Notes under the pieces: model-generated | Databases searched by the model: none | What the model saw: the letters and a program-made list of their open reading frames with translations, nothing else | Told to the model about the DNA's origin: nothing | Shown: in pieces, positions 15,089-33,284 of the stretch | Layout of the letters: each line of letters begins with the position of its first letter | Position numbering within the stretch: position 1 is the first letter of the stretch | IMG/VR virus record: IMGVR_UViG_3300032462_000009 | Coordinates: 1-51,392 of that record | Strand: one strand, 5' to 3' | Source: a virus | Length of the DNA: 51,392 nt | Made by a program: the position numbers and the translations under genes

Positions 15089-16741
15089 TTAATACATACT
15101 TTGCATCATATTCTGAGATGATTCTTCTGATTTATCTTCGGGAATATCTATTATTACAGCTTCTGTAAGTAATACTATTCCTGCCACAGAACAAGCATTT
15201 TCTAATGCTACTCTACAAACTTTAGTAGGGTCTATAATCCCTTTTTCAATCATGTTAACTACGGTTTCTGTTTTTAAATCAAAACCAAAATGAGGAGATG
15301 AACCTGCTTTACCTTTTTTTAGGATTTCATCAGTTATACTAAATATTTCTTGAAGAGAATATCCGGCATTTTCTAATATTTTATTAAAGGGGGATGAACA
15401 TGCTCTATAAACTATACTTTGACCTGTTTTGAAACTTTTACTACTACTTTTATCTTCAATTATAGCTTCTTTAGCAAACAATAAAGCAACTCCTCCTCCA
15501 GGTATAATTCCTTCTTCTAAAGCGGCTTTGGTCGCATGTAAAGCATCATCAACGCGGTCCTTCTTCTCTTTCATTTCCGTTTCACTATTCCCACCAACAT
15601 GGATTATAGATACTCCTCCTACCATTTTAGCTAATCTATCTTGCACTTGTTCCTTCTCAAATGGTGACTTTGAAATGTCTATTTGGTTTTGAAGTTCTTC
15701 CACTCTAGAATTAATAGCTTCTTCATCTCCCTTCCCATCAATTATAGTTGTTTGATCTTTAGTAATGTTGGCTACTCTGGCCTCACCAAACCATTCATAA
15801 CTAAACTTATCAAGTTTCATACCTTTACTTTTACTAAAAACTTGACCTCCTGTAAGAGTAGCTATATCTTCTAATATAAGTTTTCTTCTATCTCCAAAGT
15901 CTGGAGCTTTGACAGCACATACTTTTATAGTTCCTCTTGCTTTGTTAACTATAAGGGTAGCTAAGGCTTCATGGTCTATGTCTTCCGCTATAATTAAAAG
16001 AGATTTATTGCTGGAAGATACAGACTCTAATATAGGAAGAAGTTCTTTAACTTGAGTAAATTTTTCATCTGCAATTAATATATATGGGTTTTCTAAAGTA
16101 CAAGACATTTCATTATTGTTGGTGACAAAGAAATGGGATTTATATCCTCTATCAAACTGCATACCTTCTACATTTTCAAGAAAAGTCTCTCCTGTTTTTG
16201 ATTCTTCTATATGTACTATTCCATCTTTCCCTACTGTTTTTACAGCTAAAGAAATAAGTTTCCCTACTTCAACATCATTATTAGCAGAAATCATAGCTAC
16301 TTGTTCTAGTTGGAAGTCTTGAGAAATATCTTTTGATATATGTTTTTTCAAATGATCAATAACTTGAGAAACCGCATTGTCAATTCCTCTTTTAACCTCT
16401 ACAGAATTAACTAAGGGATTAATTTCTTCCGCCCCCAGGTTTACCATTTGTTGAGTTAGTAGTGTAGAGGTAGTAGTTCCATCCCCGGCTTTATCCGAAG
16501 TGTTAATTGATGCTTGCTTTACCATCTGCGCTCCTATATCTTCTACAGGATCATCAAGTTTTTCTATAGCTTTAGCAACAGATACTCCATCCTTGGTAGA
16601 AGTAACTTCTCCATTTTTAATATAGACGGCGTTTCTACCATTAGGTCCTAATGTTGATACTACAGCGTCTGCTAACTGGTTTATCCCTTTTATAAGTTTA
16701 GTTCTTCCTTGGGTTGAAAGATGTATTTTTTGTTTTTTCAT
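15089..16741 (-). CDS. groEL: GroEL-type chaperonin, 550 aa
   Basis: Full-length Hsp60: [21 protein letters not shown]-site [41 protein letters not shown] and [13 protein letters not shown] are all present. It lacks the bacterial C-terminal Gly-Gly-Met repeats and ends MMQSMY. It should form the folding cage, probably for capsid proteins or the large polymerase. Follows groES by ten bases, the usual order. Confidence 0.97.
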
Positions 16742-19077: not shown

Positions 19078-21897
19078 TTATGTTTTTATAACTTCATTCA
19101 TTCTCCTGTTGATGGTCAAAGCGGATTCTTGGATAATTCTGTGACCACTAAGTGTTATAGCTTCACTTAGAAGAGCATGGTTCATCCCATAACGGAAAGA
19201 AGGTTGACTAGTAGCACCATAAAGACTGTTCAGTAGAATCTTTACTGTATATTGGTACATATGATAAGTTTCAGCATCCACTTTGTTCCCGGATTTATAT
19301 GCTTCTTTCATTAAGGTTTTATATTTAACCCTTTCATTAAACCATTTTTTTAATATGATAGATAATACAGATTCTCTCTCTTTTGTAAAGAAAACACCAT
19401 TAGCGGAAATTGATAAATTTTGGGATACTATAAGGTTAATAAGATCCAAAACTTTTATTTCAGTTCTTTTCCCTTTATTATTTTCTATTATAAGTTTTTC
19501 TTTTGGATCTTTAAGTTTTAAATCATTTAACCCTAAACGATTATTTCTATCATCGGTATCAATGATCCTGCCTACCAAAGTTTCTTTCCCTATATTGAGG
19601 GTCATTATTATTTTAGGATATAGGGAAACTAAATCTTCATCATACACATATTTATAAATTCCGGCTTTAGGGCAAAACAAATAACCTCCAGCATAATCTT
19701 TTTTAGGTATTTGGTTTCTTTCTCTTGATGGAGGAATAATATTTTTATCTAAAAGGTAAGCTGAAATAGCTCCATCTTGAGTTTTAGTATTAGCATATAC
19801 TTCACTATAATTATGTTTTCCTTTATGGGATAGATTTTTAACTAAGGTTAAATAATTCCATTTGGGGTCTAATAAAACTAATATTTCCACGTCTCTGAAA
19901 CCATATTGGATAAAGGTTTCTATATCATTTTCATATAGTTCATCTAAGTTTCCGGCCTCAATCTTTTTTAGATTTACATATTTTTCCCCTATGTCATCTA
20001 ATTTAAAGGATATTTCATCCTCCCAACTGAATTTTTTATGTAACCTCATAAAATCTAAAGATTCAACTCCTACTATTTGGATATATTGATCATCATACCA
20101 AGGTGTTTCTCTTATTTTATTTATAGGAGAAAGATAAGATGTAATTTCCTCTCCTAATATTCTACACATTCTATAATAGGTATAAGGTACATCAAAGAAA
20201 TCACAGTTATGGGTTTTTACTCCTTCATAAGTAAAATAACTTGTTGAGGTAGTTATATCACACATATCTACCTCCTCCTTAGTATCTATAATTTCTCTTA
20301 CCCTAACTAGGACTTTATCTTTAAGAACATACTTTTTAGTATTACATGAGGGTTTGTTTTTAAATTCAAAATATTTTATTTTATTTTTTTGTTGGTTATT
20401 CTTGTACCCTCTCAAACATAAACCCTCAATGAAGGTTTTGTTATTGAAGATATTGGTGTATGGTATATTTAAATTATTCTCGGAAGATTCAATTGTAGAA
20501 TAAACACCATTCCATAATAACAACTCATGAAATTTATGGATGTTGTTTTCATAATTACAAAAAGATAAAAATTTATTATTAACACTACCATCCCCATCGA
20601 TACACCCTGAAAAGAATGATGAAAATTGTTTTTTAGAAAGTTTAGATAGTAAATTTATATTAAGTGATTTTTCATCATTCCCCCCATAAATTAACTTTTT
20701 TAATAACTTAAACTTACCATCATGTGAATTTTTACTAAACATTCTAAAATTATAATTAGGTTTAGCATTAGGGTAAAGTTTTGATATGGAGGGTTTTAAT
20801 TGATCAATATTCTCAATTTGGGATGATTCTCGCCTATAAATATTTGCTAGAGGTATAATATTTTCAATTAGCTCCTTACAACTATTAGATACACTAATAG
20901 AGTTAGTGTCACCCTTCCCTTCACTGTGATACCAACCATCAGTAAATATAAGACCTAACAGATATAAATCATCATTAGTTATAGGTACAGTATCTTTACC
21001 CCCTACTAAACTCATATTTTGATTATTGTTAGGATTATTACCTTTAATAACTTCTAGATATAAATCATTGTTATTACCTATCATATCCTTTACAGATTTA
21101 TCGGATACATTCTCTAGTATAGGGTTTAATGATTGATAGGTTGATGTTTTTTCATATACTGGGAAGATATGGTCTATACTACTTTTTATAGTGTTACCAT
21201 TTTCTAATAGAAGATTATATTGGTTCTTCATTTTTGATGATACATATCGAAGTACTCTGTTATCCACACCATGTAATGGGGTATTATTGGGTATATTTTC
21301 GATTTCTACAATTTCATCCTCTTTCCATATTCTGGATGTTTTTGGAATACAATTCCATCCTACTATTATGTCGGGATCTATCTCTCTGAACCTTTCTAAG
21401 AATATTAACAGGAGTTCTTTTTCCGTTCTGCAAGGTATTATTTCTTTATTTCTATGTTTGGTGTGGGCTACTTTACCTGTAGGGTCTAAGATTAATAGAC
21501 CCCACATATCTAGTTGTTTATCGTACCAAGCGATTTGGGTGATTTTTTTAGCTGCTTCTTTTATACTTTCAGGGGTTAGAGATTCTAACATCTCAGTTTC
21601 TATATCCCAAAAGAATTCTCTGTGGGTTTTAGAGGGTTCATCATTTATTCCATATTTTTCAATAAGGAATTTTTGGTGAGGGGTAATATCATGGAAATGT
21701 AGTCTTGGATTATCTTTATCCCATTCATTAACTTTTTTTAGAAATTCCCCATTTAACCCTCGATGAGTATGAATAGATTCAGAGCATTCTATAAAGGCCC
21801 AATTATTCCATTTTATTTTTTCATACCCTCGATCATCCCAAAGATGGATGAGACATTTATTGCCCCCTAACCCCTGGGAAAAACATTTCTTATACAT
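19078..21897 (-). CDS. Family-B DNA polymerase, N-terminal subunit with intein, 939 aa
   Basis: Exo I FFWDIETE (D98, E100); Exo II GWN-CDFFDVPY is interrupted by an intein at residues 183-564; Exo III YGFRDV (about 665-670); motif A DLVSLYPKI (755-763); motif B KILLNSLYGAT (886-896). The frame stops after NEVIKT, before motif C, which is in the next gene. After splicing the subunit is 557 residues. Replicative polymerase acting with the gp45-like clamp. The intein leaves Exo II broken unless it splices. Confidence 0.92.
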   Translation of the reverse strand: MYKKCFSQGLGGNKCLIHLWDDRGYEKIKWNNWAFIECSESIHTHRGLNGEFLKKVNEWDKDNPRLHFHDITPHQKFLIEKYGINDEPSKTHREFFWDIETEMLESLTPESIKEAAKKITQIAWYDKQLDMWGLLILDPTGKVAHTKHRNKEIIPCRTEKELLLIFLERFREIDPDIIVGWNCIPKTSRIWKEDEIVEIENIPNNTPLHGVDNRVLRYVSSKMKNQYNLLLENGNTIKSSIDHIFPVYEKTSTYQSLNPILENVSDKSVKDMIGNNNDLYLEVIKGNNPNNNQNMSLVGGKDTVPITNDDLYLLGLIFTDGWYHSEGKGDTNSISVSNSCKELIENIIPLANIYRRESSQIENIDQLKPSISKLYPNAKPNYNFRMFSKNSHDGKFKLLKKLIYGGNDEKSLNINLLSKLSKKQFSSFFSGCIDGDGSVNNKFLSFCNYENNIHKFHELLLWNGVYSTIESSENNLNIPYTNIFNNKTFIEGLCLRGYKNNQQKNKIKYFEFKNKPSCNTKKYVLKDKVLVRVREIIDTKEEVDMCDITTSTSYFTYEGVKTHNCDFFDVPYTYYRMCRILGEEITSYLSPINKIRETPWYDDQYIQIVGVESLDFMRLHKKFSWEDEISFKLDDIGEKYVNLKKIEAGNLDELYENDIETFIQYGFRDVEILVLLDPKWNYLTLVKNLSHKGKHNYSEVYANTKTQDGAISAYLLDKNIIPPSRERNQIPKKDYAGGYLFCPKAGIYKYVYDEDLVSLYPKIIMTLNIGKETLVGRIIDTDDRNNRLGLNDLKLKDPKEKLIIENNKGKRTEIKVLDLINLIVSQNLSISANGVFFTKERESVLSIILKKWFNERVKYKTLMKEAYKSGNKVDAETYHMYQYTVKILLNSLYGATSQPSFRYGMNHALLSEAITLSGHRIIQESALTINRRMNEVIKT
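20206..21351 (-). other. Intein with LAGLIDADG-type endonuclease domain, 382 aa
   Basis: First residue Cys183, last His563-Asn564, followed by Cys565 as +1 residue. The N-terminal splicing block has IKSSIDHIFPVY (block B His); block F has VDMCDITTSTSYFTYEG before VKTHN. In between, two dodecapeptide-like motifs, LLGLIFTDGWY (313-323) and FFSGCIDGDGSV (428-439), mark a homing endonuclease. Removing it joins GWN to CDFFDVPY and rebuilds Exo II. Confidence 0.93.
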
Positions 21898-22584: not shown

Positions 22585-23349
22585 TTATCTTGAGGGAGAT
22601 ATTTTCAACATATCAAAAACTTCTTGTTTAGCTGTTTTATTATGGTCTAAAAACACACCACTCCCACAACTGGTTATCATAGAACTATTAATATCACGAA
22701 CTCCCCTACATTTCACACAATTATGAGAATTTTCCATTATTACTAAGGTACCCAAATTATTCTCACAAATTTTATCTATTGCTTTTTGTATCGCTAGTGT
22801 TAAGTCTTCTTGAATACATCCACGAGAGGCAAAATAACTACAAATTCTATTAAGTTTACTTAAACCAATCACCCTATTATCTTCCCCCCCGGGGATATAA
22901 GCGATATGACAATACCCAATTACACTTTCATGATGATGAGAACATTTACTATAAATACCAATATTTTTTTCTAAAATTATACCTGTATAATTACTAGGGA
23001 AACTTGAGATATCACTTAAAAGGTTATATCTTCCCTTAAAAGCATCTTCAACATAAGCTTTGCTTACACGATGTGGGGTGTTATCAGAATTGGGGTCATT
23101 TTCCCAATCTACCCCAAGTGCTGTTAAGAACTTACCATAATGTTTGGCAGCCTCATTTATTATTTCCTCCTTCTCTTTTTGATTTAAAGAACGACATTCT
23201 CCACTCTCAAGCAAATTATGGAGTTGTGTAGAAATACCATTAGCATATCCGGCTTTGGCAATTTCTAACTCTTGACTGGAGATAGTTTTTTTGGTACTTC
23301 CTTCTACACCATTTGCCTTTTTAAGTAATTCAATTTCGTTTTTAATCAT
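22585..23349 (-). CDS. folE: GTP cyclohydrolase I, 254 aa
   Basis: CSHHHESVIGYCHIAYIPGG, GLSKLNRI, RGCIQEDLT and HNCVKCRGVRD carry the zinc (Cys, His, Cys) and catalytic residues of FolE. It converts GTP to dihydroneopterin triphosphate, first step of the 7-deazaguanine route and of folate. With QueD, QueE, QueC here, the deazaguanine route is the natural reading. A strong AAAGGAG sits upstream of the ATG. Confidence 0.93.
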   Translation of the reverse strand: MIKNEIELLKKANGVEGSTKKTISSQELEIAKAGYANGISTQLHNLLESGECRSLNQKEKEEIINEAAKHYGKFLTALGVDWENDPNSDNTPHRVSKAYVEDAFKGRYNLLSDISSFPSNYTGIILEKNIGIYSKCSHHHESVIGYCHIAYIPGGEDNRVIGLSKLNRICSYFASRGCIQEDLTLAIQKAIDKICENNLGTLVIMENSHNCVKCRGVRDINSSMITSCGSGVFLDHNKTAKQEVFDMLKISPSR

Positions 23350-23383
23350 AATTTTATTCTCCTTTTATGTTTATTTATTTGTA

Positions 23384-23415
23384 TTAATATATGAATTTTA
23401 TTTACAAAGGCCAAA
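23384..23415 (-). promoter_or_regulatory. Bacteroidota-type promoter
   Basis: Minus strand: TTTGG, 20-base spacer, -7 box TATATTAA; 34 bases upstream of the folE ATG. Confidence 0.5.
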
Positions 23416-23454
23416 GTAATGGTGAATTTATATTATGTTTAATTTATTGGGATA

Positions 23455-24000
23455 TTACATCACCGCATATCTTAATAATCCTCCTCTGAATCCTGTCTGT
23501 AGGTATTCCTCAGGATTACTTAGTACCTTTTCTAACATATCACGAATCATTTGTTTTTCCTGTTCATAGGTAAGTGGGGGTGTATCTATGTATTGTGTGA
23601 TAGAGGGTGACCATGTTAGAGTAATACTCTTCGAAGGTTCATATGTTTTTGGGTTATAAGTAATAGGTGAAATTACACACCCATCTTTAACTGGAGTGTG
23701 GATATCTAATGGTGAATACATTTTTGGGGTAAACGATATGGTGTAAACATATCCTACTTTATTTTTGTAGGTTGGGTTTTCTGAATCTGATAGAATTGTT
23801 TCGTCAGCAACCAATAAGGTAATACCATCCTCCAATAATACCGAAGGGGCAGACATCCAAATGATTTTTTCAAACTCAAAATGATTAATGAGTTCGGTTT
23901 CTGCTAGAATACGTTGTTCTTCCGTTAAGTTGTGAATACCCATTACCTCATAAGGTTCATTAAGTATGGATAATAATTTTTGAGTTATACTTACTTTCAT
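23455..24000 (-). CDS. Hypothetical protein, paralogue of 28709-29254, 181 aa
   Basis: Shares with the 28.7 kb gene NLTEEQ, HFEF-KI-WM, NPTYK-KVGY-YT, FTPKMY, TPVKDGC, SITLTWSP and KQMIRDMLEKVL-NPEEY; over half the residues match by eye and lengths are equal. Same fold, unknown role. Sits between folE and the queE/queD genes. Probably a duplicate within this early region. Confidence 0.75.
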   Translation of the reverse strand: MKVSITQKLLSILNEPYEVMGIHNLTEEQRILAETELINHFEFEKIIWMSAPSVLLEDGITLLVADETILSDSENPTYKNKVGYVYTISFTPKMYSPLDIHTPVKDGCVISPITYNPKTYEPSKSITLTWSPSITQYIDTPPLTYEQEKQMIRDMLEKVLSNPEEYLQTGFRGGLLRYAVM

Positions 24001-24007
24001 TTTTCTT

Positions 24008-24230
24008 TTATTTATTTATGTATTTTTCTATTTTATCCAACAATTCTAGTACTTCATCAGGTTCCATTGTTATAGCACAACAAAGGTTTATATTTTCTTT
24101 TATTTTATCTAAGATATGAAGTATTTCTTGTTTATCCAAAATATTTTTTATTTTTAACCCATCCCTGATTATGCCCTTCAATTCTTCATATTTAATTTGG
24201 AAGTTCTACAACTAAAAGAGGTTTTGTCAT
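24008..24230 (-). pseudogene. Frameshifted small gene
   Basis: From the ATG at 24230 the frame reads MTKPLLVVELPN and stops. A second frame continues with FQIKYEELKGIIRDGLK...CCAITMEPDEVLELLDKIE to a stop at 24008. Removing one base near CTTCC would join them to a protein of about 73 residues. Could be a true pseudogene, a frameshift, or a sequence error. If the downstream part is made alone it needs a TTG start. Confidence 0.45.
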
Positions 24231-24252
24231 TTTATTTTATATTAATTCATCA

Positions 24253-25149
24253 TCAAACCTCTCTCATCTCATCGAATGCAATTATATGTGGGCGAGGTGA
24301 GAATTTATATCCTCTATCCTTACACATATTCATTACAGGACCATAACTTTCAATTAATTGTTCTCTAGTAGCTCCGGCGGGCATCATCCATGTCTTAGAC
24401 TTAACCATATTATGAATTCCTTCAAGATCAAACCTAACATAAGAATTAATATATTTGGGGGATGATAAGAGGCCGGTAGATAACCTTTCTAAAAAATCTT
24501 CAACTTCTCCCATTATCGTGAGGTCCTTATCAATTACGGGCTTTATATGGTAATCGTGATGGTAGTTGATAGAATCGATTATATTCGCGTAATTTAGACG
24601 GAACTTATTATGTTGTTTAACCATCCTTTCATCTACTATAGCCCCCAATGGAGTTTTTTCTCCTTTTATAGGTATAGAATTAGAAAATTTAGGACTAATA
24701 GATAATAAGTTTATAGGGTGATCTGTTTCTAGGAAATGAGACCCTTCAGTTTCCATAGTTATAAATATTTTGTTTTGGTAAGCAAAATGAGTAAGTTCAT
24801 TTACTAAGGAAGGATGCATTGAAGGTGAACCTCCAGTTAACATCATCTCTTTTATATGAGGGTTAGATTTATACATATCAATTATTGATTGAAAATTATG
24901 CGTACCCTTTTCTGGGTGGATAGAGGTATACCAGCTATCGCACCATCCACCTTCCCCAAAAAAACATCTGTGGGTGCATCCAGTGGTTCTGATTACTATG
25001 GTAGGATAACCTGCTCTAGACCCTTCTGACTGGATTGCTGTGTAAACTTCTAAGATAGGTAAAACCTTATCATAATCTTCTATACGGTCTAATTTTTTAT
25101 GTTCCATAATTTTTCTGATATTTTCTTCTGGGATTTCAATTTTCTTCAT
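24253..25149 (-). CDS. queE: 7-carboxy-7-deazaguanine synthase-like radical SAM enzyme, 298 aa
   Basis: TTGCTHRCFFGEGGWCD carries three cysteines for the 4Fe-4S cluster, with a longer gap before the third than in usual CxxxCxxC. MLTGGSPSMHPSL is the GGxP-like motif and METEGSHFLE a later one. It should convert 6-carboxytetrahydropterin to 7-carboxy-7-deazaguanine. The ATG at 25149 (MKKIEIPEEN) is preferred to 25212; it overlaps the queD end by 14 bases. Confidence 0.85.
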   Translation of the reverse strand: MKKIEIPEENIRKIMEHKKLDRIEDYDKVLPILEVYTAIQSEGSRAGYPTIVIRTTGCTHRCFFGEGGWCDSWYTSIHPEKGTHNFQSIIDMYKSNPHIKEMMLTGGSPSMHPSLVNELTHFAYQNKIFITMETEGSHFLETDHPINLLSISPKFSNSIPIKGEKTPLGAIVDERMVKQHNKFRLNYANIIDSINYHHDYHIKPVIDKDLTIMGEVEDFLERLSTGLLSSPKYINSYVRFDLEGIHNMVKSKTWMMPAGATREQLIESYGPVMNMCKDRGYKFSPRPHIIAFDEMREV

Positions 25150-25615
25150 ATATCCCTGAATTTTTGCTGTTTTCGAATACTTCCACTTTAATAGCTTTAC
25201 ATCTATTAGCATCTATTTTTGAAAAAACATCATTGAATTTTTCTAATATAAATTTAGCTAAATATTCGGCACCCATCTTTTCCATAAAATGCACTTTACA
25301 TATTCCTTCCATAGCCATAGTTTCGAATAAATCCCTATAAGGATCATCTTTTTCAACTAGTAAAGTATGGTCCAATAAACCATCTAACCAATTTTTTAAA
25401 CCATTACCTTCAGGTTGAGCCTTAAATGAACCAAAATCAACTATCCAATTCATAGAGTCAAGCTGTTTATCTATTTCAGGTTCATTAGAAGCAAACCAAA
25501 CCTTCACCTCAAAGGAGTACCCATGAAGCAATTGACAATGTGAATGTTTGGCCTTCCATTGTCTTATAGCTATTGAAAAATTATCGAATTTCTTAGTTGA
25601 AATATATCTTGGCAT
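25136..25615 (-). CDS. queD: QueD-like 6-carboxytetrahydropterin synthase, 159 aa
   Basis: HSHCQLLHGYSFEVKVWF contains the catalytic Cys and part of the zinc site; NWIVDFGSFK and DHTLLVEKDDP match later conserved parts. Compared with the textbook enzyme, the first zinc His seems to be Ile (FSIAI) and HGH is HGY, so it belongs to a divergent phage-type subfamily. Makes the substrate for QueE. Overlaps queE. Confidence 0.8.
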   Translation of the reverse strand: MPRYISTKKFDNFSIAIRQWKAKHSHCQLLHGYSFEVKVWFASNEPEIDKQLDSMNWIVDFGSFKAQPEGNGLKNWLDGLLDHTLLVEKDDPYRDLFETMAMEGICKVHFMEKMGAEYLAKFILEKFNDVFSKIDANRCKAIKVEVFENSKNSGIYEEN

Positions 25616-25633
25616 TTGTTTTGTTTTTAAATA

Positions 25634-25819
25634 TTAATATGTTATAGTGAAAGGATTATAAGGATTAGTAGGAGGATTATAAGGGATATTATAAGGATAA
25701 AAGAGATTTATCCTACTAGATTCGATTTCAGCTTTCAACAATATAACAGCCTCTTGAGGTGTTATAGAGTTTTGTTTAAGTAGTTTTTCTACTATGGAAG
25801 TTATTGTATCATTATTCAT
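25634..25819 (-). CDS. Small hypothetical protein, 61 aa
   Basis: N-terminal helical part (SIVEKLLKQNSITPQEAVIL) followed by a Pro/Tyr/Asn-rich tail (YPYNIPYNPPTNPYNPF). No family recognised. Overlaps the stop of the UvrB-like N-half by eight bases. Confidence 0.6.
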   Translation of the reverse strand: MNNDTITSIVEKLLKQNSITPQEAVILLKAEIESSRINLFYPYNIPYNPPTNPYNPFTITY

Positions 25820-26669
25820 TGTTGTAAAAATTTAATACATTGTTTTTGATAACATTACTTATATAAAATCCTTTATCTACTAACTTTGTTGATCTAGCTT
25901 TATTAGCACTAGGTAACGCCTTTAATTGTAATAATGTTAAATGGGATTCATCAATAAATAAATTTGGTTTGGATTTTTTGAAATAATCTGTTAAATAAAA
26001 ATCTCCTAATTTTTCCCCTAAAAGTGCAATCACATCAGTATTGTAATATTCACTATCTGAAGGTAACAACATATTAATGGTATGATCTATATGATTTTCT
26101 AATCGTTCAGCTTCTTCCAATCTACCTTCCCTATTAAAATCTCTAACTTGTTTAACCATCTCTTCATTCAATCTCCTGATGATGAAACTTTTATGTTCAG
26201 TAATTAACTCTGGCAATTGTTTTTCAAAAGTTGGAAATAAAATAGTACTGGAGCATATTAAAATAGCTTTATCGGAATAATCTAAGAAATCTTTAACTGC
26301 GTAACGTAAATCCTTATTTTCTTGATTAACAACTACTGTACCTCCTACTTTCTTATTAAGAATGTTGTGAAAATATGGTGGTATATAAATATCATAGTTA
26401 GATACATAATATCCAACAAAGTTATCGGGGAACATTGCTACTAATTCATTATATAGCTGATATGCTAATACCTTATTAGGTGCTAAAACACTCGCGGGTT
26501 TATTTTCTCTATCGATAACATTCCCTAATACAAATGTTTTTCCTGAACCTGTTATTCCTTTTAAAGTTTGTTGTTTGTACTTACCAATTCCATCTAATAA
26601 ACCATCAATTGAATTATATTGATCTTTAGTAGGAGTGAAATCGGATTTTAAATTAAATCCATTTTGCAT
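25812..26669 (-). CDS. UvrB-like helicase, N-terminal half, 285 aa
   Basis: Walker A GITGSGKT (38-45), VLAPNKVLAYQLYNEL (motif Ia), YYVSNYDIYIPPYF (88-100, the UvrB beta-hairpin region), and FIDESH (238-243, motif II) follow UvrB closely. It stops at VIKNNVLNFYNNE, where UvrB would continue into the second helicase domain. That domain (SAT, motifs IV-VI) is encoded at 29878-30722, upstream in transcription order. Preceded by a promoter-like site and a shared early leader. Confidence 0.85.
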   Translation of the reverse strand: MQNGFNLKSDFTPTKDQYNSIDGLLDGIGKYKQQTLKGITGSGKTFVLGNVIDRENKPASVLAPNKVLAYQLYNELVAMFPDNFVGYYVSNYDIYIPPYFHNILNKKVGGTVVVNQENKDLRYAVKDFLDYSDKAILICSSTILFPTFEKQLPELITEHKSFIIRRLNEEMVKQVRDFNREGRLEEAERLENHIDHTINMLLPSDSEYYNTDVIALLGEKLGDFYLTDYFKKSKPNLFIDESHLTLLQLKALPSANKARSTKLVDKGFYISNVIKNNVLNFYNNE

Positions 26670-26692
26670 AACTCTTATTTTTAAATTAACGT

Positions 26693-26704
26693 GGCTTCCT
26701 TACC
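26693..26704 (-). promoter_or_regulatory. Short 5'-leader hairpin-like element
   Basis: GGTAAGGAAGCC on the minus strand near the expected transcript start, followed by an A-rich run before ATG. Weak 3-bp stem; similar elements lie at 27696-27708 and 29743-29756. Confidence 0.3.
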
Positions 26705-26710
26705 AACACG

Positions 26711-26742
26711 TAAAGATACGAAAGATAGCTCGGGTATCCAAA
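26711..26742 (-). promoter_or_regulatory. Bacteroidota-type promoter, TTTCGTA subclass
   Basis: Minus strand: TTTGG, 20-base spacer ending TTTCG, -7 box TATCTTTA. 42 bases upstream of the UvrB-like N-half ATG. Confidence 0.7.
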
Positions 26743-26774
26743 TTTTTATACCATTATAGTTTAAGTAGGCAACT

Positions 26775-26870
26775 CTATTTACCTTTATTTAATTTATATA
26801 GTTCATTGTATATACCTGCAAGCAGGATATAAAGGGGTAAAAATATAACCCATAGGTCTAGTGGAGTCAT
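26775..26870 (-). CDS. Possible small membrane peptide, 31 aa
   Basis: MTPLDLWVIFLPLYILLAGI then YNELYKLNKGK: one membrane segment with a basic tail. Located between two genes of the early region, just before a promoter. Short, so only moderately supported. Confidence 0.4.
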   Translation of the reverse strand: MTPLDLWVIFLPLYILLAGIYNELYKLNKGK

Positions 26871-26892
26871 AATATTAATTTATTTAGTTTAA

Positions 26893-27447
26893 TTATTTTA
26901 ACGAGCTTCTGTATCTGTAATGTAAACACTGAATATCACCCCCGCATAAGGTTCCGTAGGTAACAAATTGTTTACCATCAACTATAGCATTTACTTCAGC
27001 ACCATCATTCCCCTTTCTAATTACGATATCACTTGCAATCATGTCATTGGTTAAGTGTTTTGCTAAAGCACGTTGTAACTTAAACATATTTACTGATATA
27101 AAGGTCTCCATATATTTTTCCTCCCAATTAGGACGTAACTGGTTCTCTAAGGTAGATATGTAATATGTTAAATTGCCATTGTTTCTAATTGCCTTATATG
27201 CATCCTTTTCGATATATTGTTCAGGTAAGTCATAACTGGTACCACTCCAAGTCCTATGTTCGGTCATATAAACAAACCTCTTTATACCTGTATACTGACA
27301 TGCAACGCCATATCTTATTACTTCCCCATTCTCCTTAACCCATTCCTGGTGCTTAGTAAAATCAGCTTTCATGTCATTGACCTGCTTGGTAGCTAAATCT
27401 GTAACAATAACTTTAGCCTCTTCTGAAATTTTATCTAATGCGTTCAT
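26893..27447 (-). CDS. Hypothetical protein, 184 aa
   Basis: Start MNALDKISEEAKVIVTDLAT. Helical first third, then ENGEVIRYGVACQYTGIKRF, SGTSYDLPEQYIEKDAYKAI and YISTLENQLRPNWEEKYMET. No family recognised. Five bases after the 72-aa gene and with the same GGTTATG-type start context as its neighbours, so an early-region protein. Confidence 0.65.
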   Translation of the reverse strand: MNALDKISEEAKVIVTDLATKQVNDMKADFTKHQEWVKENGEVIRYGVACQYTGIKRFVYMTEHRTWSGTSYDLPEQYIEKDAYKAIRNNGNLTYYISTLENQLRPNWEEKYMETFISVNMFKLQRALAKHLTNDMIASDIVIRKGNDGAEVNAIVDGKQFVTYGTLCGGDIQCLHYRYRSSLK

Positions 27448-27452
27448 AACCT

Positions 27453-27671
27453 TTATTTTACAACACCAATTACTCTATATTTCTCACTGTATCTTGTTTT
27501 GGTACAATCCCATACCATAACCTTACATTCAACTTTTTTCCCAAAATATTCTCTAACATCGGTAAATTTATCTTCATTAATTAGTATCGAATCACCTATT
27601 TCTACATCTAGGAAATAGAATATACACTCCATAAACTCCTCCATTATTACTCTTCCAAATATAGTCTCCAT
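27453..27671 (-). CDS. Hypothetical protein, 72 aa
   Basis: Start METIFGRVIMEEFMECIFYF; acidic first half, beta-rich second half (CKVMVWDCTKTRYSEKYRVI). No family recognised. First gene after a TTTCGTA-type promoter with a leader hairpin. Confidence 0.65.
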   Translation of the reverse strand: METIFGRVIMEEFMECIFYFLDVEIGDSILINEDKFTDVREYFGKKVECKVMVWDCTKTRYSEKYRVIGVVK

Positions 27672-27695
27672 AACCTTTATTTTTAATTATAATAT

Positions 27696-27708
27696 GGGCT
27701 TCTTGCCC
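27696..27708 (-). promoter_or_regulatory. 5'-leader hairpin
   Basis: GGGCAAGAAGCCC: 4-bp stem and 5-base loop, near the expected transcript 5' end, followed by an A/T-rich run and AAAGGTTATG. Confidence 0.45.
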
Positions 27709-27719
27709 TTATTTATGCG

Positions 27720-27751
27720 TAAATATACGAAAGCTTTTTCGGGTATCCAAG
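27720..27751 (-). promoter_or_regulatory. Bacteroidota-type promoter, TTTCGTA subclass
   Basis: Minus strand: CTTGG, 20-base spacer ending TTTCG, -7 box TATATTTA followed by CG. Overlaps a block shared with 29767-29798. Confidence 0.7.
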
Positions 27752-27774
27752 CTTCCTGTGCATTACTGTTAATC

Positions 27775-28317
27775 TCATTCAGATAAAAATTCACCAAATA
27801 ATTGCATATATCTCCCTTCCTCTATCTCATTTTCAAAATATTTATTTGATGGTGTTTTAATAGAAAAATCATCTCCATCAATAGAGAATACTGCTTTTTT
27901 ATAACCTTTTACATATAAATCGTATCTACCATCTCCTTTATCTATAAATTTATTATATTTAGGGTTTGATTTATGGATTCCTTGTGCTTTTACATTTTTA
28001 TAACCAAAAATCTTATCCATCAACATTTTCCAAGCATCACCATGTGGTTTGGGATCACATCCAGCCGTTTCCGGTCCTAATTTAAAATAATGATGGTCAT
28101 AAGCGTGACAAAGCTCATGTGCAATGGTATCTTTTTCCAATTCTGTATCCAATATAAAGGATGATAAACTGATTAAATAATGATTTGGTCCTATATACTT
28201 ACAATGTCCAAATTTAGATTTTGCCTTTGTAGATACTTCATATTTAATCTTAAGCTTCTCAACACCTAAATCATTTGATATTTTAGTGTTTAAATTTTCT
28301 AATAATTTATTCTCCAT
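27775..28317 (-). CDS. SprT-like zinc metalloprotease, 180 aa
   Basis: DTIAHELCHAYDHHYF carries the HExxH zinc motif; a basic N-terminal part (YEVSTKAKSKFGHCKY) fits SprT-type proteins, which cleave DNA-crosslinked proteins in eukaryotes (Spartan). Role in phage unknown. Its 5' and 3' ends recur as remnants at 29347-29478 and about 29795-29858. Confidence 0.75.
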   Translation of the reverse strand: MENKLLENLNTKISNDLGVEKLKIKYEVSTKAKSKFGHCKYIGPNHYLISLSSFILDTELEKDTIAHELCHAYDHHYFKLGPETAGCDPKPHGDAWKMLMDKIFGYKNVKAQGIHKSNPKYNKFIDKGDGRYDLYVKGYKKAVFSIDGDDFSIKTPSNKYFENEIEEGRYMQLFGEFLSE

Positions 28318-28376
28318 CTTGATTTATATAAACTATGTTAATAAGTGTGCTACTTCCCAGACTTTTTTCAATTTTC

Positions 28377-28652
28377 TTATTTTGAAATTTCATCTACATC
28401 TACATTAATGTGTATTCCTAACTCCTTTAATTGTTCCGGTGATAATGGTTTTACGAGTGAGGGTTGATGTTGTTTAGGATATTCTCTTTTTAGTGGATCT
28501 TTCTTAAAGAAAAATCCTGTTATATCCGCATATCGAAGAAGTTCTTTATCTCCCTCTATAATGGTATTTCCTGATTTTGCTTTAAGCATTACAATCTTAA
28601 ATCCTAATTTATTTGTAAGCCATTTGATAAATAGTAAAGATAATCTTTCCAT
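28377..28652 (-). CDS. Hypothetical protein, 91 aa
   Basis: Start MERLSLLFIKWLTNKLGFKI; then ADITGFFFKKDPLKREYP and a C-terminal SPEQLKELGIHINVDVDE. No family recognised. Start context AAAAGTTATGG is shared with neighbouring early genes. Confidence 0.6.
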   Translation of the reverse strand: MERLSLLFIKWLTNKLGFKIVMLKAKSGNTIIEGDKELLRYADITGFFFKKDPLKREYPKQHQPSLVKPLSPEQLKELGIHINVDVDEISK

Positions 28653-28708
28653 AACTTTTATTTTTAAAATTTATAATTTTTATATGTTAGTTTATTAATC
28701 TTATATCA

Positions 28709-29254
28709 TTATACAGCTGCAAATCTTACTATGCATCCTGTATGTTCAACTGGTCTATACTCTTCAGGATTATCCAATACTTTTTCTAACATATCACGAA
28801 TCATTTGTTTATCATCTTCATATGTTCTTTGTGGAGCCTCAATATCTTGAGGAAAGTCAGGTGACCAAGTTAGAGTAATACTTTGTTTAGGTTTATATGT
28901 TTCTGGATTGTAAGTGGTGGGGGCAAATACACATCCATCTTTTACTGGGGTATATATTGTATCCGACTCATACATTTTTGGAGTAAACATTAAAGTATAG
29001 ATGTATCCTACTTTATGTTTATAAGTTGGGTTATCTGTATCTGATATTTTTATTGATTTTATAACAATTGGGGTTGATTTATCTTCTGTTAGTCCACCCT
29101 GAGATTTCATCCAAACAATTTTATCGAATTCAAAGTGTTTAATAAGTTCTGCCTCTACTTGTATGAGTTGTTCTTCGGTTAAGTTGTTAATACTCAAGGC
29201 GTCCATAGAGTAACCGCAAATATCTACTAGTTTTTCTGTTAAATTTGATTTCAT
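28709..29254 (-). CDS. Hypothetical protein, paralogue of 23455-24000, 181 aa
   Basis: Equal in length and over half identical by eye to the 23.5 kb gene (shared NLTEEQ, TPVKDGC, SITLTWSP, KQMIRDMLEKVL-NPEEY). The ATG at 29254 is the only one in frame among three near-identical ATGAAATC copies (29254, 29262, 29270). Upstream lies a 9-bp A/T tandem repeat and a promoter, giving an unusually long leader of about 90 bases. Confidence 0.75.
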   Translation of the reverse strand: MKSNLTEKLVDICGYSMDALSINNLTEEQLIQVEAELIKHFEFDKIVWMKSQGGLTEDKSTPIVIKSIKISDTDNPTYKHKVGYIYTLMFTPKMYESDTIYTPVKDGCVFAPTTYNPETYKPKQSITLTWSPDFPQDIEAPQRTYEDDKQMIRDMLEKVLDNPEEYRPVEHTGCIVRFAAV

Positions 29255-29270
29255 GATTTCATGATTTCAT
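29247..29270. repeat. 8-bp tandem repeat over the start codon
   Basis: Three copies of an 8-mer, reading ATGAAATC on the minus strand, span the start of the 181-aa gene. Only one ATG is in frame, so copy changes leave frame unaffected but add decoy starts. Confidence 0.85.
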
Positions 29271-29275
29271 GATTT

Positions 29276-29338
29276 TATTATTTTTATTATTTTTATTATT
29301 TTTATTATTTTTATTATTTTTATTATTTTTATTATTTT
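29276..29338. repeat. 9-bp A/T tandem repeat, about 7 units
   Basis: Perfect period-9 array of the unit ATTATTTTT in the leader of the 181-aa gene. A candidate for copy-number change. Confidence 0.9.
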
Positions 29339-29346
29339 AAAATATA

Positions 29347-29478
29347 CTATAAATGTACGAAAGATAATCCGAGTAACCAAACCTCCCTTGTAGATACCTC
29401 GTATTTAATCTTAAGTTTCTCAACACCTAAATCATCTGAGATTTTAGTGTTTAATTTTTCCAGTAATATATTTTTCAT
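29347..29478 (-). pseudogene. Truncated copy of the SprT-like N-terminus, 43 aa
   Basis: MKNILLEKLNTKISDDLG then VEKLKIKYEVST match the first 30 residues of the SprT-like protein, then the frame diverges and stops. It overlaps the next promoter. Remnant of a duplication. Confidence 0.7.
29350..29381 (-). promoter_or_regulatory. Bacteroidota-type promoter, TTTCGTA subclass
   Basis: Minus strand: TTTGG, 20-base spacer ending TTTCG, -7 box TACATTTA. Upstream of the 181-aa paralogue. Confidence 0.65.
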
Positions 29479-29492
29479 TTTCTTTTATTTAC

Positions 29493-29717
29493 TTAATCCC
29501 TAATAATAAATTCATCACCTACAATACAATCTCCATTATCAATAAAATGTAAAATTTTATTTTTCAAACCATCACTTTTATTATCACATTCTATAATCTC
29601 TTTAGTTAATAAATTCTGAACAACACAACTTTCAACATAACTAGAATGTGTACAATTAAAATGTCCCTTTACTTCTTCTATTACATTTTTTACTTCTAAT
29701 ACTTTAAATCTTTCCAT
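29493..29717 (-). CDS. Hypothetical protein, 74 aa
   Basis: Start MERFKVLEVKNVIEEVKGHF; ESCVVQNLLTKEIIECDN and a C-terminal CIVGDEFIIRD. Beta-rich, no family recognised. Own promoter and hairpin leader; flanked by SprT remnants on both sides. Confidence 0.6.
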   Translation of the reverse strand: MERFKVLEVKNVIEEVKGHFNCTHSSYVESCVVQNLLTKEIIECDNKSDGLKNKILHFIDNGDCIVGDEFIIRD

Positions 29718-29742
29718 AACTTTTATTTTTTAATTATCAATT

Positions 29743-29756
29743 GGGCTTCTAACCCC
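29743..29756 (-). promoter_or_regulatory. 5'-leader hairpin-like element
   Basis: GGGGTTAGAAGCCC: 3-bp GGG/CCC stem near the expected transcript start, then A/T-rich leader and AAAAGTTATGG. Variant of the 27696-27708 element. Confidence 0.4.
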
Positions 29757-29766
29757 TCTTACCCTA

Positions 29767-29798
29767 TGAAGATACGAACCCTATTTGAGGTAGTCAAG
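29767..29798 (-). promoter_or_regulatory. Bacteroidota-type promoter, TTCGTA subclass
   Basis: Minus strand: CTTGA, 20-base spacer ending TTCG, -7 box TATCTTCA. The most divergent of the set, kept for its spacing and its homology to 27720-27751. Confidence 0.5.
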
Positions 29799-29858
29799 CT
29801 TCCGGTGTATTACTGTTAGATTTTATCAAACAAAAATTCACTAAATAGTTACCCACTT
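29795..29858 (-). pseudogene. Remnant of the SprT-like 3' end
   Basis: The block from the -33 box through ACTGTTA...AAAAATTCAC matches 27748-27806, which holds the promoter and the last codons of the SprT-like gene. Non-coding here. Confidence 0.6.
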
Positions 29859-29877
29859 CAATAAAAAATACTAATTT

Positions 29878-30722
29878 TTAAATACTACCTATTAAACTTA
29901 ATTGTTTTTCCCTCCTATATTCAATCTCTTCAATTGCTCCCTCTAATGAAGATGATATATGATTACAACACATAAAAACTTCTCCATTTGTATTTCTAGC
30001 AGCTCTACCTGATACTTGAATTAAACATGATTTAGTACGTAGAAAATTATTTCTACTAGCTTGCTCAACAATAACTAAGGAACATTGTTTTACATCAATC
30101 CCCTCACGTAACATATTAATACCAATAATAACATTAATTTTACCACTACGTAAATCTCTTAAAATCTCTTTACGTTTATTTTGTTTTATTTTGAAATGTA
30201 TAACTTCACTATCAATATTATTGTATGAGAGTAAAATATGAATATCATTAACTGATCTTCTAGATATACAGTTTATAAAAACAGTTTCACCTTTTTTTAC
30301 TATATTTTTAATATCATTAATCATAACATTACTTCCAAAATAATCCCCCTCCTTAAGAGTTAATTTAGGATCTACTATATTATTAGGACGGGTTAATAAT
30401 TCCGAAATATATTCACTATTTTCTAATTCAAATTTTGATGGAGTAGCGGACATATAAGTTATTGTGTTTACTCTATCTTTTAAATCATCAAAATTTAATA
30501 TTTGTTCTTTATTTAACATTCCTATAGTTCTTTGAATTTCTACTCCATCTTTTAATAGGATTAAACATGGAATATTTTTAACGTGATATTTTACACGTAA
30601 TTGACTTTCTAGATCTACATCTACTCTTGTAAATGATATTTGATTGGAAAGAGAATCCCTGATGGGGCTTAAGGTTTTGCATGGTAAACACCAATCTGAC
30701 GTAAAGTATAATATTTTTTCAT
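29878..30722 (-). CDS. Thioredoxin fused to UvrB-like helicase C-terminal half
   Basis: The frame is open from 30750. Its first part is a thioredoxin: KILYFTSDWCLPCKTLSP (active site WCLPC), RVDVDLES, NIPCLILLKDGVEIQ. It runs without a stop into MLNKEQILNFDDLKDRV, then UvrB motifs TITYMSATP (III), GINMLREGIDV (V) and QVSGRAARN (VI). No ATG is in frame; the one at 30722 is one base out, and one more A in the A6 run after it would give MKKILYFTSDWC. Internal Met at 30519 would give helicase only. The N-terminal half is at 25812-26669. Confidence 0.7.
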
Positions 30723-30728
30723 TATATT

Positions 30729-30760
30729 TTAATATAATTAATATAAGGTATTAAGCCAAT
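30729..30760 (-). promoter_or_regulatory. Bacteroidota-type promoter
   Basis: Minus strand: ATTGG, 20-base spacer, -7 box TATATTAA. The box ends six bases before the ATG at 30722, so the mRNA would be almost leaderless. Confidence 0.5.
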
Positions 30761-30816
30761 TTATCTTTTAAAAGCTCGTGAAGATATTTCTTTTTCTTTA
30801 TCGTTTTCCATAATTT

Positions 30817-31425
30817 TCAATTACTTAGTTTCAGTTTTATGTTTGGATGGTTTTCATATCCGTTTAGGTAAAAATCGCTTATTTCTAGGTTATTAATAAA
30901 TTCAACTCCTTTTCTATCTGGGTTCCAGAATTCATCATTTATAACAAGTGTTGGTAAATCGTATGGTTCCCTAGTTAATTGTTCTTTAAGTCCATCTTTA
31001 TGATTGTTATAGATATGAGTATCTCCTAAACTGCCAACCAACATATCAGGGACCATATTAACTTCTTTTGCAATTATTGATAATAATAAACCATATGAAG
31101 CTATGTTATAGGGTAAACCCAACCCAACATCAACTGATCTTTGATTCCATATTAAGGAGATTGCTCTTGTTGGGACACGGTTAGCTCTCATATCGTCTTC
31201 TTCATTCTCTAAACCAGCTTCTAAATGTTCTAAAATGACATTGTTTTGTAGGCACCAATTTCTTCGCTCACCCATAGACAATTTTCTTGTATAAACTTGA
31301 AATCCATAATGGCATGGTGGTAATACTTGCTTACCTTCAGTTATATTTTTTAATCCATACCTTTTGTTAAATTTAATATTACATTTTAATTCTTTTAAGA
31401 ATGCTTCTTTATTTAAAGGCTTCAT
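30817..31425 (-). CDS. thyA: Thymidylate synthase, C-terminal part, 202 aa
   Basis: LPPCHYGFQVYTRKLS holds the catalytic Cys38; ISLIWNQRSVDVGLGLPYN and LLVxx-type SLGDTHIYNNH are dUMP and folate site motifs. It has about 33 extra N-terminal residues (from MKPLNKEAFLKELKC) absent in normal ThyA. The Arg-bearing N-terminal part is the gene just upstream, 20 bases away. The two must associate to make dTMP. Confidence 0.85.
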   Translation of the reverse strand: MKPLNKEAFLKELKCNIKFNKRYGLKNITEGKQVLPPCHYGFQVYTRKLSMGERRNWCLQNNVILEHLEAGLENEEDDMRANRVPTRAISLIWNQRSVDVGLGLPYNIASYGLLLSIIAKEVNMVPDMLVGSLGDTHIYNNHKDGLKEQLTREPYDLPTLVINDEFWNPDRKGVEFINNLEISDFYLNGYENHPNIKLKLSN

Positions 31426-31445
31426 ATATTTTATATTTTTAAAAT

Positions 31446-32078
31446 TTATTGCTTTTTTGATTGGGTAAAATCTTTTAAATATATTTGATAAAGTTCATCA
31501 GATGTTCTATTATCTGTTACGGGTAAATCCGCGGGGTTCCATGCCGATACTAACATCCTACGAGAATCTGGATTGGTTCTTAGTTCGTGTATTATGTCGG
31601 AGATCTGATCTATTGAATCCTTTATTGTAAGGGAATACGCTTTATTTTGAATGGCAGGATGGTTTGTGTCAAAACGTATATTCCAATTCCTCCATTGTTT
31701 ACCATATATGGGACCTAGTTCCCCCCACTTCTTTGCGAATTCGATATTAGTTTTTATCTCATGTATAAATTCTTTTCTAGTAAGTGGTTTACCATCCTTT
31801 AGATAATTAGAGAAGCAATCCCCCACCCAAATATTATTCCCATTCTCCACCAAGTATTTAATGTTCGTGTCACCTCTCAAAAACCAAATAAGTTCTGATA
31901 CAATGTTCTCAAAATTGATTTCCTTTGTTGTAAGTATAGGAAATCCATCTTTCATGTTATGTGTTATATGCATACCAAATATGCTGGAAGTTCCGGTCCC
32001 CGTCCTATCTGATTTATCGTAACCATTCAATAGAATATGTTCTACTAAATCTAGATATTGTTTGTCTAGTTTATTCAA
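31446..32078 (-). CDS. thyA: Thymidylate synthase, N-terminal part, 210 aa
   Basis: DKSDRTGTGTSSIFG (phosphate-binding Arg25), ELIWFLRGDTNIKYL, GPIYGKQWRNW and SRRMLVSAWNPADLP are canonical ThyA up to just before the catalytic Cys loop. It then carries about 20 unrelated residues and stops. The Cys loop opens the next gene. Overlaps the 110-aa gene by four bases. Confidence 0.88.
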   Translation of the reverse strand: MNKLDKQYLDLVEHILLNGYDKSDRTGTGTSSIFGMHITHNMKDGFPILTTKEINFENIVSELIWFLRGDTNIKYLVENGNNIWVGDCFSNYLKDGKPLTRKEFIHEIKTNIEFAKKWGELGPIYGKQWRNWNIRFDTNHPAIQNKAYSLTIKDSIDQISDIIHELRTNPDSRRMLVSAWNPADLPVTDNRTSDELYQIYLKDFTQSKKQ

Positions 32079-32407
32079 AATCCTTTAAAAATTTCAGGTT
32101 CATTTTTCATCTTTTTATCAAACTCCTTTCTAATCTTTTCATTCCAAGGTCTATTTATACGAGTTAACTCATTTGCTACTAATAGCAAGTTATGTTCAGT
32201 CCAATAACCACTATTTAAGCCCCTCGCATAATAGAACCCATCAACATCCATTACAAACTCACAAAGGGTTTTTCTGTTTTCATAAACCACCTCATAAGTA
32301 TGAAGATTTATAGGTTTTAGAGATAGATCTGATTTTTTAGTTGGAGATGGTGAAGGAACAGAACCTTTTAGAGGGTCATTAGAAGGTTTGATGTTAATCT
32401 TACTCAT
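32075..32407 (-). CDS. Hypothetical protein, 110 aa
   Basis: Pro/Ser-rich N-terminus (SVPSPSPTKKSDLSLKP), then HTYEVVYENRKTLCEFVMDV and a helical basic end. No family recognised. Start overlaps the queC stop and its end overlaps the ThyA N-part, so it belongs to this nucleotide operon. Confidence 0.6.
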   Translation of the reverse strand: MSKINIKPSNDPLKGSVPSPSPTKKSDLSLKPINLHTYEVVYENRKTLCEFVMDVDGFYYARGLNSGYWTEHNLLLVANELTRINRPWNEKIRKEFDKKMKNEPEIFKGF

Positions 32408-33284
32408 ATATTTTTTTAAACATTTTAAAAGTTTTTTCTTGAAGGTGGTTCTTAAGAACTTCCATCACATGGTTCTTTGCAGTTTCCCATTTAACCGGTC
32501 CATTTTGGTCGGCATAAAGTGTTGGGTCTTTTTTATCTAATTTTATAAAAGCTTCAATCCTCTCGACACTAGAAGCGGATTTATAGTCACTATAAACTTT
32601 CCCTTCTATTGTTATTGGTTTATAAGAGGTTATAGTTCTTTTATAAATTTCTTTGAATTTTAAACCTAATTCTTCACATAACCTAACACCATCCTTTAAG
32701 ATATCTATTTTCATCCCTTCAAGATAAGGGGTAAAATATTTTACGTTTTCCCAATTCCAATTTCCTAATCTGAAAGCTTTTTGGTCTGCATCTCTGAATT
32801 CAGGTCTACAGTCTGGGTATATATTAAAATCTCCAGCATGGATCCCCATTGCTATATCACAACATTCTTCCGTTTCATTAGCTATGGATAAAGCTATAGA
32901 TTGTATTATAGATGAGAATAATTTATTTCGGTTAGGAACAACAGTTTCTTTCATGTTAGACTGTTCATAATGACCTTCTGGTACTTCTGTTCCTCCTTCT
33001 ATTAACCCACTAACCAAAAGTTCGGATAGGCCTTTTAATTCTATTACACGATGTTTAGTTTGAGGATAGTTGATTGTTACTTTTGAAGGTGTAATAAAAC
33101 TCCTATGAGGATTCAAATTTAAATATTCTACTAGTTCCCTAGCTTTATTTAATTCCTCTTTATGTTTTTGACCATAGTCAAATGAAACACAAACTATATT
33201 TTCATATTCATTTAAACATCTAAGTAACAAGGTGCTAGAATCCATCCCTCCGGAGAGTGAAAGTACTACATTTTTCTTTTTCAT
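32400..33284 (-). CDS. queC: QueC-like 7-cyano-7-deazaguanine synthase, 294 aa
   Basis: VLSLSGGMDSSTLL is the ATP PP-loop; SFDYGQKHKEEL, VVPNRNKLF, AMGIHAGDF and YPDCRPEF match QueC. It should turn 7-carboxy-7-deazaguanine via the amide into preQ0. The C-terminal zinc site (four Cys) is absent: the equivalent stretch is KVYSDYKSASSVERIEAF. This may change stability or stop the reaction at the amide. Adjacent to small genes and the DpdA-like gene. Confidence 0.88.
   Translation of the reverse strand: MKKKNVVLSLSGGMDSSTLLLRCLNEYENIVCVSFDYGQKHKEELNKARELVEYLNLNPHRSFITPSKVTINYPQTKHRVIELKGLSELLVSGLIEGGTEVPEGHYEQSNMKETVVPNRNKLFSSIIQSIALSIANETEECCDIAMGIHAGDFNIYPDCRPEFRDADQKAFRLGNWNWENVKYFTPYLEGMKIDILKDGVRLCEELGLKFKEIYKRTITSYKPITIEGKVYSDYKSASSVERIEAFIKLDKKDPTLYADQNGPVKWETAKNHVMEVLKNHLQEKTFKMFKKIYE

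Follow-up and report, generated by a model that had tools for sequence, protein, structure and literature searches.

It has been proposed that genes flow between large lytic phages by way of mini-circles, with circles serving as gene vectors in shuffling of the promoter early stem-loop (PeSL) type, and the nifD-type excision elements of cyanobacteria have 11-base-pair (bp) direct repeats. PeSL shuffling, with the mini-circles of T4-type phages, was reportedly set out by Arbiol et al. 2010. This PeSL work of Arbiol et al. 2010 is cited in the excerpts of PMC4503421 and PMC3950731. Insertions by way of circular intermediates (cattle colour sidedness and human segmental duplications) turn an order A-B/C-D into one with B and C outermost and with A and D joined inside, and the excerpted text of PMC7450558 holds the corresponding order flip to be specific for circular intermediates. 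Here, we describe a locus of the phage record IMGVR_UViG_3300032462_000009 (IMG/VR; positions 1 to 51,392, the whole 51,392-nucleotide stretch being called the window) in which a thioredoxin gene (trx) and a UvrB-like helicase gene are each divided at one and the same 11-bp word, probably because a foreign, mini-circle-like cassette was inserted by microhomology and left two broken genes behind. Events of this kind are already known (circular intermediates; promoter-element shuffling in large phages); the clean, two-gene, in-frame reciprocal form is new as far as a limited literature search shows. A search for a thioredoxin–UvrB fusion or split gene, or for phage UvrB with thioredoxin, gave nothing pertinent by title.

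Layout of the locus and its two junctions

Genes at the locus were named by likeness to the annotated Flavobacterium phage immuto. In the order of transcription, on the minus strand, they are thyA, T1.U2, six open reading frames (ORFs) of at least 60 amino acids (aa), U1.T2, a 61-aa ORF, queD and queE, where the principal parts are the following.

30490..30720, minus: T1, first part of the thioredoxin gene (ILYFTSDWCLPC...KEQILNF), from Pfam Thioredoxin and relatives; without an in-frame start codon
30490..30500, minus: shared 11-bp word TATTAAATTTT, copy 1, at the T1/U2 junction
29878..30489, minus: U2, C-terminal part of the UvrB-like helicase (SATP to GRAARN and the end), with an ORF of its own from Met 30519
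25827..26669, minus: U1, N-terminal part of the UvrB-like helicase (motifs I, Ia, hairpin and II), from the ORF, Pfam and relatives
25827..25837, minus: shared 11-bp word TATTAAATTTT, copy 2, at the U1/T2 junction
25812..25826, minus: T2, last four thioredoxin codons and stop (YNNE*), from the match to the ends of relatives' thioredoxins
25827..30489, minus: S, the whole segment taken to be inserted, U2 to U1, 4,663 bp, from junctions and leaders

The ORF of the N-terminal half (26669..25812, minus strand) has GITGSGKT, the hairpin stretch YYVSNYDIYIPPY and DESH, and matches Pfam ResIII with 25.9 bits (cut-off 22.5). The frame 30750..29878 (minus strand) has WCLPC, SATP and the motif VI stretch GRAARN, and matches both Thioredoxin (PF00085, 51 bits) and Helicase_C (61.6 bits), each with a cut-off of 23.5. 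The motifs and order thus agree with an earlier note on this DNA, which had described a split and permuted UvrB-like helicase with the C-terminal half upstream of the N-terminal half in transcription; its further claim that both breakpoints fall at one place in the helicase is borne out by intact relatives. What that note overlooked is the end of the N-terminal ORF, which closes with the thioredoxin tail YNNE* (T2). The thioredoxin domain and its CxxC (WCLPC) are present in T1, and the complete gene is not, its last four codons lying 4.66 kilobases (kb) away.

On the minus strand, the window has two copies of the word TATTAAATTTT, which coincide exactly with the joins (30500-30490 and 25837-25827); two more are on the other strand (42175 and 44963). 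In 50 simulated windows, the mean was 1.22 copies for both strands together. Eleven bp is also the longest word common to the two joined genes, and a shared run of that length contains 12 of the 343,144 junction pairs that could be formed. When the flanks of S are joined in silico, the thioredoxin ends in KEQILNFYNNE*, like the thioredoxins of relatives (NFYNN, SFYNG, DLYNR, NLYNK). When the helicase is rejoined at the word, it gives a gapless 485-codon frame, stop included, with no residue gained or lost at the join by comparison with the intact proteins of contigs L003, L004 and L005 (484 aa each), and in the intact gene of L003 the word is flanked by the left flank of U1 and the right flank of U2. 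A single exchange at this 11-bp word has both junctions, T1.U2 ... U1.T2, as its reciprocal products.

The arrangement recurs whole in IMGVR_UViG_3300027976_000007 (L007), which equals the window over 16.9 kb except for one 9-bp repeat and whose assembly may or may not be independent of that of the window. The T1/U2 junction is found again in 3300007516_000184 (L006), from another metagenome, with six single-nucleotide polymorphisms (SNPs) in 9.5 kb; this contig ends before the second junction. Where trx and thyA have their broken starts and frames, both contigs read as the window does.

Intact relatives and the origin of S

IMG/VR scans with both halves and with the intact family yielded seven records, of which two are this same phage (L006 and L007) and five (L003, L004, L005, L010 and L011) carry an intact helicase gene; none of the seven holds two full copies. 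Among other phage records searched, 27 and 69 matched the two halves, none closely (all below 60% identity), and bacterial UvrB matches reach at most 36% identity in the best 80 of 536 confirmed. Motifs I, II, III and VI are of the UvrB kind, GITGSGKTF, DESH, SATP and GR..R being invariant across five phage and 42 bacterial rows. We call the protein UvrB-like, not UvrB, because the intact protein of L003 remains below the NCBIfam UvrB equivalog cut-offs (TIGR00631, 342.1 against 750.1 bits; NF003673, 350.9 against 743 bits). The predicted model of an intact relative, built on a 47-row alignment, has a mean predicted local distance difference test (pLDDT) of 89.3, with PDB 1c4o as its closest structure match (Z 40.0, 477 residues, root-mean-square deviation 3.2); with only the five phage proteins as input, the mean pLDDT was 37.5, and that poor model was set aside. 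On the predicted model, the intact relative would have a UvrB fold without most of one domain. It resembles UvrB (PDB 1c4o and others) in fold over its full length and in the helicase motifs, and differs in two respects, as some 95 residues are missing where UvrB has domain 2 and nothing corresponds to UvrB past about residue 584: 93 residues within stretch 146-256 of a bacterial UvrB fragment (L106) are without counterpart in the five phage proteins, and structure matches of the 484-aa phage protein end at about residue 579-584. The missing stretch we take to be domain 2, the UvrA contact, and the C-terminal UVR domain is presumably wanting as well.

In the same model, the split after residue 281 lies at a short helix ahead of the strand (291-295) that carries SATP, so U1, being cut inside the first motor domain, would be without the SATP strand of that domain. 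As possible causes of the split, an intron was rejected (at gathering thresholds, Rfam has no match to the window) and an intein was set aside by eye only.

The helicase alleles form a mosaic, L003-like through nucleotide 897 and L005-like from nucleotide 912, with the split after nucleotide 843; of the ten informative sites from the split to nucleotide 897, nine have the L003 state and one has that of L005. Had the halves arrived separately, the allele change would be expected at the split. Because it lies 18 to 23 codons beyond, U1 and U2 were once one gene, and an origin of the halves from two donors was rejected. Residues private to one helicase number three in the window, none in L003, three in L010, six in L004, eight in L005 and 17 in L011. 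The replacements I60S, E109G and L260S arose in the lineage of the window's U1 and none did in that of L003, two of them at sites uniform in the other five; as these changes are few, and L004, L005 and L011 have more private residues, they suggest relaxed constraint on U1 only weakly.

The remaining features of S and its lower flank are as follows.

29715..29802, minus: donor-type promoter/leader element P ahead of the 74-aa gene (profile search, leader match)
29493..29717, minus: 74-aa gene (p74), 96% identical to the gene after the intact uvrB in L005
29347..29484, minus: second sprT-like gene, a fragment (31 aa at 84% to the full copy)
28709..29254, minus: 181-aa gene, 56% identical to a paralogue outside S
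28377..28652, minus: 91-aa gene with donor-type leader (ORF and leader match)
27775..28317, minus: sprT-like metallopeptidase gene, 93% identical to the gene after the intact uvrB in L003
27669..27755, minus: donor-type element P ahead of the 72-aa gene (profile search, leader match)
27453..27671, minus: 72-aa gene (ORF)
26893..27447, minus: 184-aa gene (p184), 80% identical to a gene downstream of uvrB-sprT in L003
26667..26745, minus: donor-type element P ahead of U1 (profile search, leader match)
25634..25819, minus: 61-aa ORF overlapping the trx end, followed by queD at 25136-25615

At the DNA level, identity to L003 is 98.9% for U1, 92% for sprT and 85% for p184; genes outside S that are shared with L101 and L102 have protein identities of 33-69%. 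Relatives have their helicase next to structural genes. In the 142-kb contig of this phage, which the window and L095-L100 together span, two other ORFs occupy that site, with no match to the genes of S, and U1 is far nearer to L003 than are the other shared genes; transfer from outside is therefore preferred to a move within the same genome, which was rejected. S, or at least its helicase, by all appearances of the sequence came from another phage lineage not long ago.

Small repeated elements point the same way. Inside S, the 74-, 91-, 72- and 184-aa genes and U1 are each preceded by an exact copy of the leader AAATAARRGTTATG. These five are all the exact copies of the window and of the whole 142-kb contig; allowing one mismatch adds a single match, at 19447. 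Among related loci, copies number four in L101, four in L103, five in L105, three in L005, one each in L011 and L070 and two each in L090 and L091, with none in L102 and L104. A profile of element P has three strong matches in the window, all in S, and a weak one at 1776-1703, and the profile search places an element directly ahead of each of the five intact helicase genes. In the three genes compared (U1, p184 and p74), similarity to relatives sets in at the leader, some 13-14 bp from the start codon, and these phages therefore seem to exchange single genes at that point. Close matches for the 181-, 91- and 72-aa genes of S were absent from the helicase contigs. The 181-aa gene has its paralogue at 23455-24000. 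Tandem repeats of 9 bp and 8 bp lie at 29246-29338, between the sprT fragment and the 181-aa gene, as a possible closing point of a circle; one 9-bp unit of this stretch differs between the window and L007.

For the recipient, we compared 70 queD loci (this phage excluded), many of which may repeat the same phage populations. A thioredoxin gene lies at most 60 bp upstream of queD in 20 and 74 bp upstream in two (L070 and L076); another 16 have it elsewhere, and in 32 none was found. The most identical thioredoxin, that of L070, starts MKKILYFSSSWC and ends SFYNG. The helicase is present at 0 of the 70 loci, no matching thioredoxin occurs in the five helicase contigs, which are fragments, and no contig in either set has both genes intact.

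A circular intermediate and its rivals

The order in L003 is U1-U2-sprT-(two genes)-p184 and that in the window U2-...-sprT-(72-aa gene)-p184-U1: the order is flipped and the former ends are joined inside, with differing genes in between. We consider it probable that this order was produced as follows. About 4.66 kb of DNA from a related but distinct lineage, with one intact UvrB-like gene, an sprT-like gene and small genes with their own promoter and leaders, would have come in as a circle, or as something circle-like, as a tandem repeat would be. Recombination at the repeated leader elements may have formed the circle, as in the mini-circles of T4-type phages with their promoter stem-loops. 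One reciprocal crossover at TATTAAATTTT between the circle and the trx gene of a flavobacterial-type phage would then have opened the circle inside the helicase gene, placing the C-terminal part first and the N-terminal part last, each fused to a piece of thioredoxin. The earlier note had held that an insertion cannot explain the order; insertion of a circle that opens within the helicase gene accounts for it in a single step. The note's other suggestion, a rearrangement scar, is upheld by the intact helicase of five related contigs, the intact thioredoxins elsewhere and the exact reciprocal junctions. The note had named related phages with an intact UvrB here and no fusion as the case against its reading; the five contigs do have the intact gene without a fusion, though at another place in the genome and not at this spot.

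Reciprocity, the 11-bp word, the intact relatives, the foreign leaders and alleles, and the one-gene origin of the halves are directly supported; the circular intermediate is a probable step and its origin at leader elements a possible one, and both genes are now presumably non-functional or nearly so. General or microhomology-driven recombination is favoured over a site-specific reaction because no integrase or resolvase family match was found in the seven records searched, most of them fragments.

As in the circular-intermediate insertions excerpted in PMC7450558, B and C lie outermost, A and D are joined inside, and short homology can mark the joins. In contrast with the excerpted cases, where joins have 1-2 bp and short insertions or deletions (indels), the exchange here is an 11-bp reciprocal one without indels, in a phage, with foreign DNA rather than a copy of its own locus, and with opening and landing sites both in coding genes. 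PeSL shuffling is similar in that small genes each have a repeated promoter or leader and that similarity to relatives starts at these elements; it differs in that the leader here is 14 bp, the hairpin of the element is at best weakly supported, and the landing was at a chance word in coding DNA, not at an element. The promoter type in S is, we assume, the Bacteroidetes pattern, unlike that of T4-type PeSL.

Several observations weigh against insertion of a foreign mini-circle. The donor itself was not seen: L003 and L005 are the nearest sources and match S in parts only, and L003 has other genes between uvrB, sprT and p184. An empty-site allele of this phage is lacking, the 28-base junction pattern having 0 exact matches in viral contigs. 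The leader is not confined to the donor group, as L070, L090 and L091 show. The hairpin of element P is not generally supported (z-scores 0.50, -2.31 and -0.13 for three copies), so that likeness to promoter stem-loops is only partial, and the excerpts of PMC4503421 deem the PeSL mechanism unlikely for its own cyanophage. Loss of helicase function rests on few changes, the three private residues of the window equalling those of L010 and being fewer than those of L004, L005 and L011. Finally, the reconstructed trx is separated from queD by 197 bp and by the 61-aa ORF; because of that ORF, the gene order is similar, not identical, to that of the 22 loci with trx close to queD.

Two rivals are comparably unlikely. 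The first is a working two-part helicase that tolerates the split, assembled from separately produced U1 (281 aa plus 4) and U2 (213 aa from Met 30519). All motifs are kept across the two pieces, U1 has the donor-type leader and element P, U2 has an in-frame internal ATG, neither part contains a stop, and T1.U2 persists in the population with SNPs. However, the modelled split falls just before the SATP strand and inside the first motor domain, not between domains; U1 has its three replacements where the L003 lineage has none; and the halves are so near to intact alleles that youth alone can explain the open frames. The second, improbable to the same degree, is a linear donor fragment that carried the helicase twice in tandem and went in by two crossovers, both at this word. 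It yields the same sequence, which counts against preferring the circle, and the second sprT fragment in S hints at a history of duplication, but two independent crossovers at one 11-bp word would be needed and no record among the seven searched has two full copies.

Very unlikely is an excisable element or reversible two-gene switch, in which the 11-bp repeats recombine, S leaves as a circle and both genes are rejoined. The direct repeats do lie inside coding genes, and excision joins both genes in frame at the word. If a switch existed, the circle would bear an intact UvrB-like helicase and the genome a joined thioredoxin, so that functions would be stored broken until needed. Like nifD-type elements, S sits in a coding gene between 11-bp direct repeats and its removal would rejoin the gene; unlike them, it has no integrase or resolvase that could be found, and it also carries both outer parts of a second gene. 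PF00589 (Phage_integrase) and PF00239 (Resolvase), the two families searched, have no match in the seven records, most of them fragments and the 142-kb contig included; the thioredoxin start would still be out of frame after excision, and the joined trx word was not found in viral contigs.

Less credible still is the redox-linked, two-part helicase offered by the earlier note, a thioredoxin-helicase fusion protein with a separate N-terminal partner. The frame is open from the thioredoxin into U2 and the CxxC is kept, so the in-frame position of the C-terminal half after WCLPC stands. The fusion protein is not supported, since no in-frame ATG, GTG or TTG precedes the thioredoxin part, the first start being Met 30519, and since the split lies inside the first motor domain. 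The ATG at 30722, taken in that note as the end of the feature, is in another frame, stops after 17 codons and is out of frame in L006 and L007 as well; moreover, the fusion is absent from all relatives seen, and the join is at a shared word, as recombination predicts. An assembly chimera, conceivable for metagenomic contigs with an 11-bp repeat at both junctions, is scarcely tenable given that three contigs, one of them with SNPs, have the T1/U2 junction and two have the U1/T2 junction, and that 11 bp is shorter than usual assembly k-mers.

Neighbouring genes and meaning of the locus

Just upstream of T1, thyA (30817-32078) is also out of frame, with a stretch of about 65 residues before LPPCH that is not in L088; part of this stretch (KPLNKEAFLKELKCNIKFNKRYGL...) resembles, by eye, a diverged copy of an earlier thyA segment. 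In a related phage (L020, 4644-6856), thyA is broken by about 0.9 kb near residue 95, with no Rfam match up to E 0.5. The 7-deazaguanine genes folE, queE, queD and queC surround the locus (22585-33284), as in Flavobacterium phage immuto. Elsewhere, the window has a family B DNA polymerase (19078-21897) with a LAGLIDADG_3 match at residues 311-347, perhaps an intein, a phage-encoded Cpn60/TCP1-type chaperonin (15089-16741), a 718-aa protein with three DUF285 stretches (48579-50735), and near-perfect tandem repeats of 102 bp and 84 bp (40-332).

For annotation, the locus is a warning: domain tools would name the C-terminal half a thioredoxin-helicase fusion, where it is most likely a scar. For gene flow among such phages, the usual view is of the end product after sorting, and here the landing itself can be read at the level of single bases, with its source lineages, opening point, landing point, the word used and the order flip.

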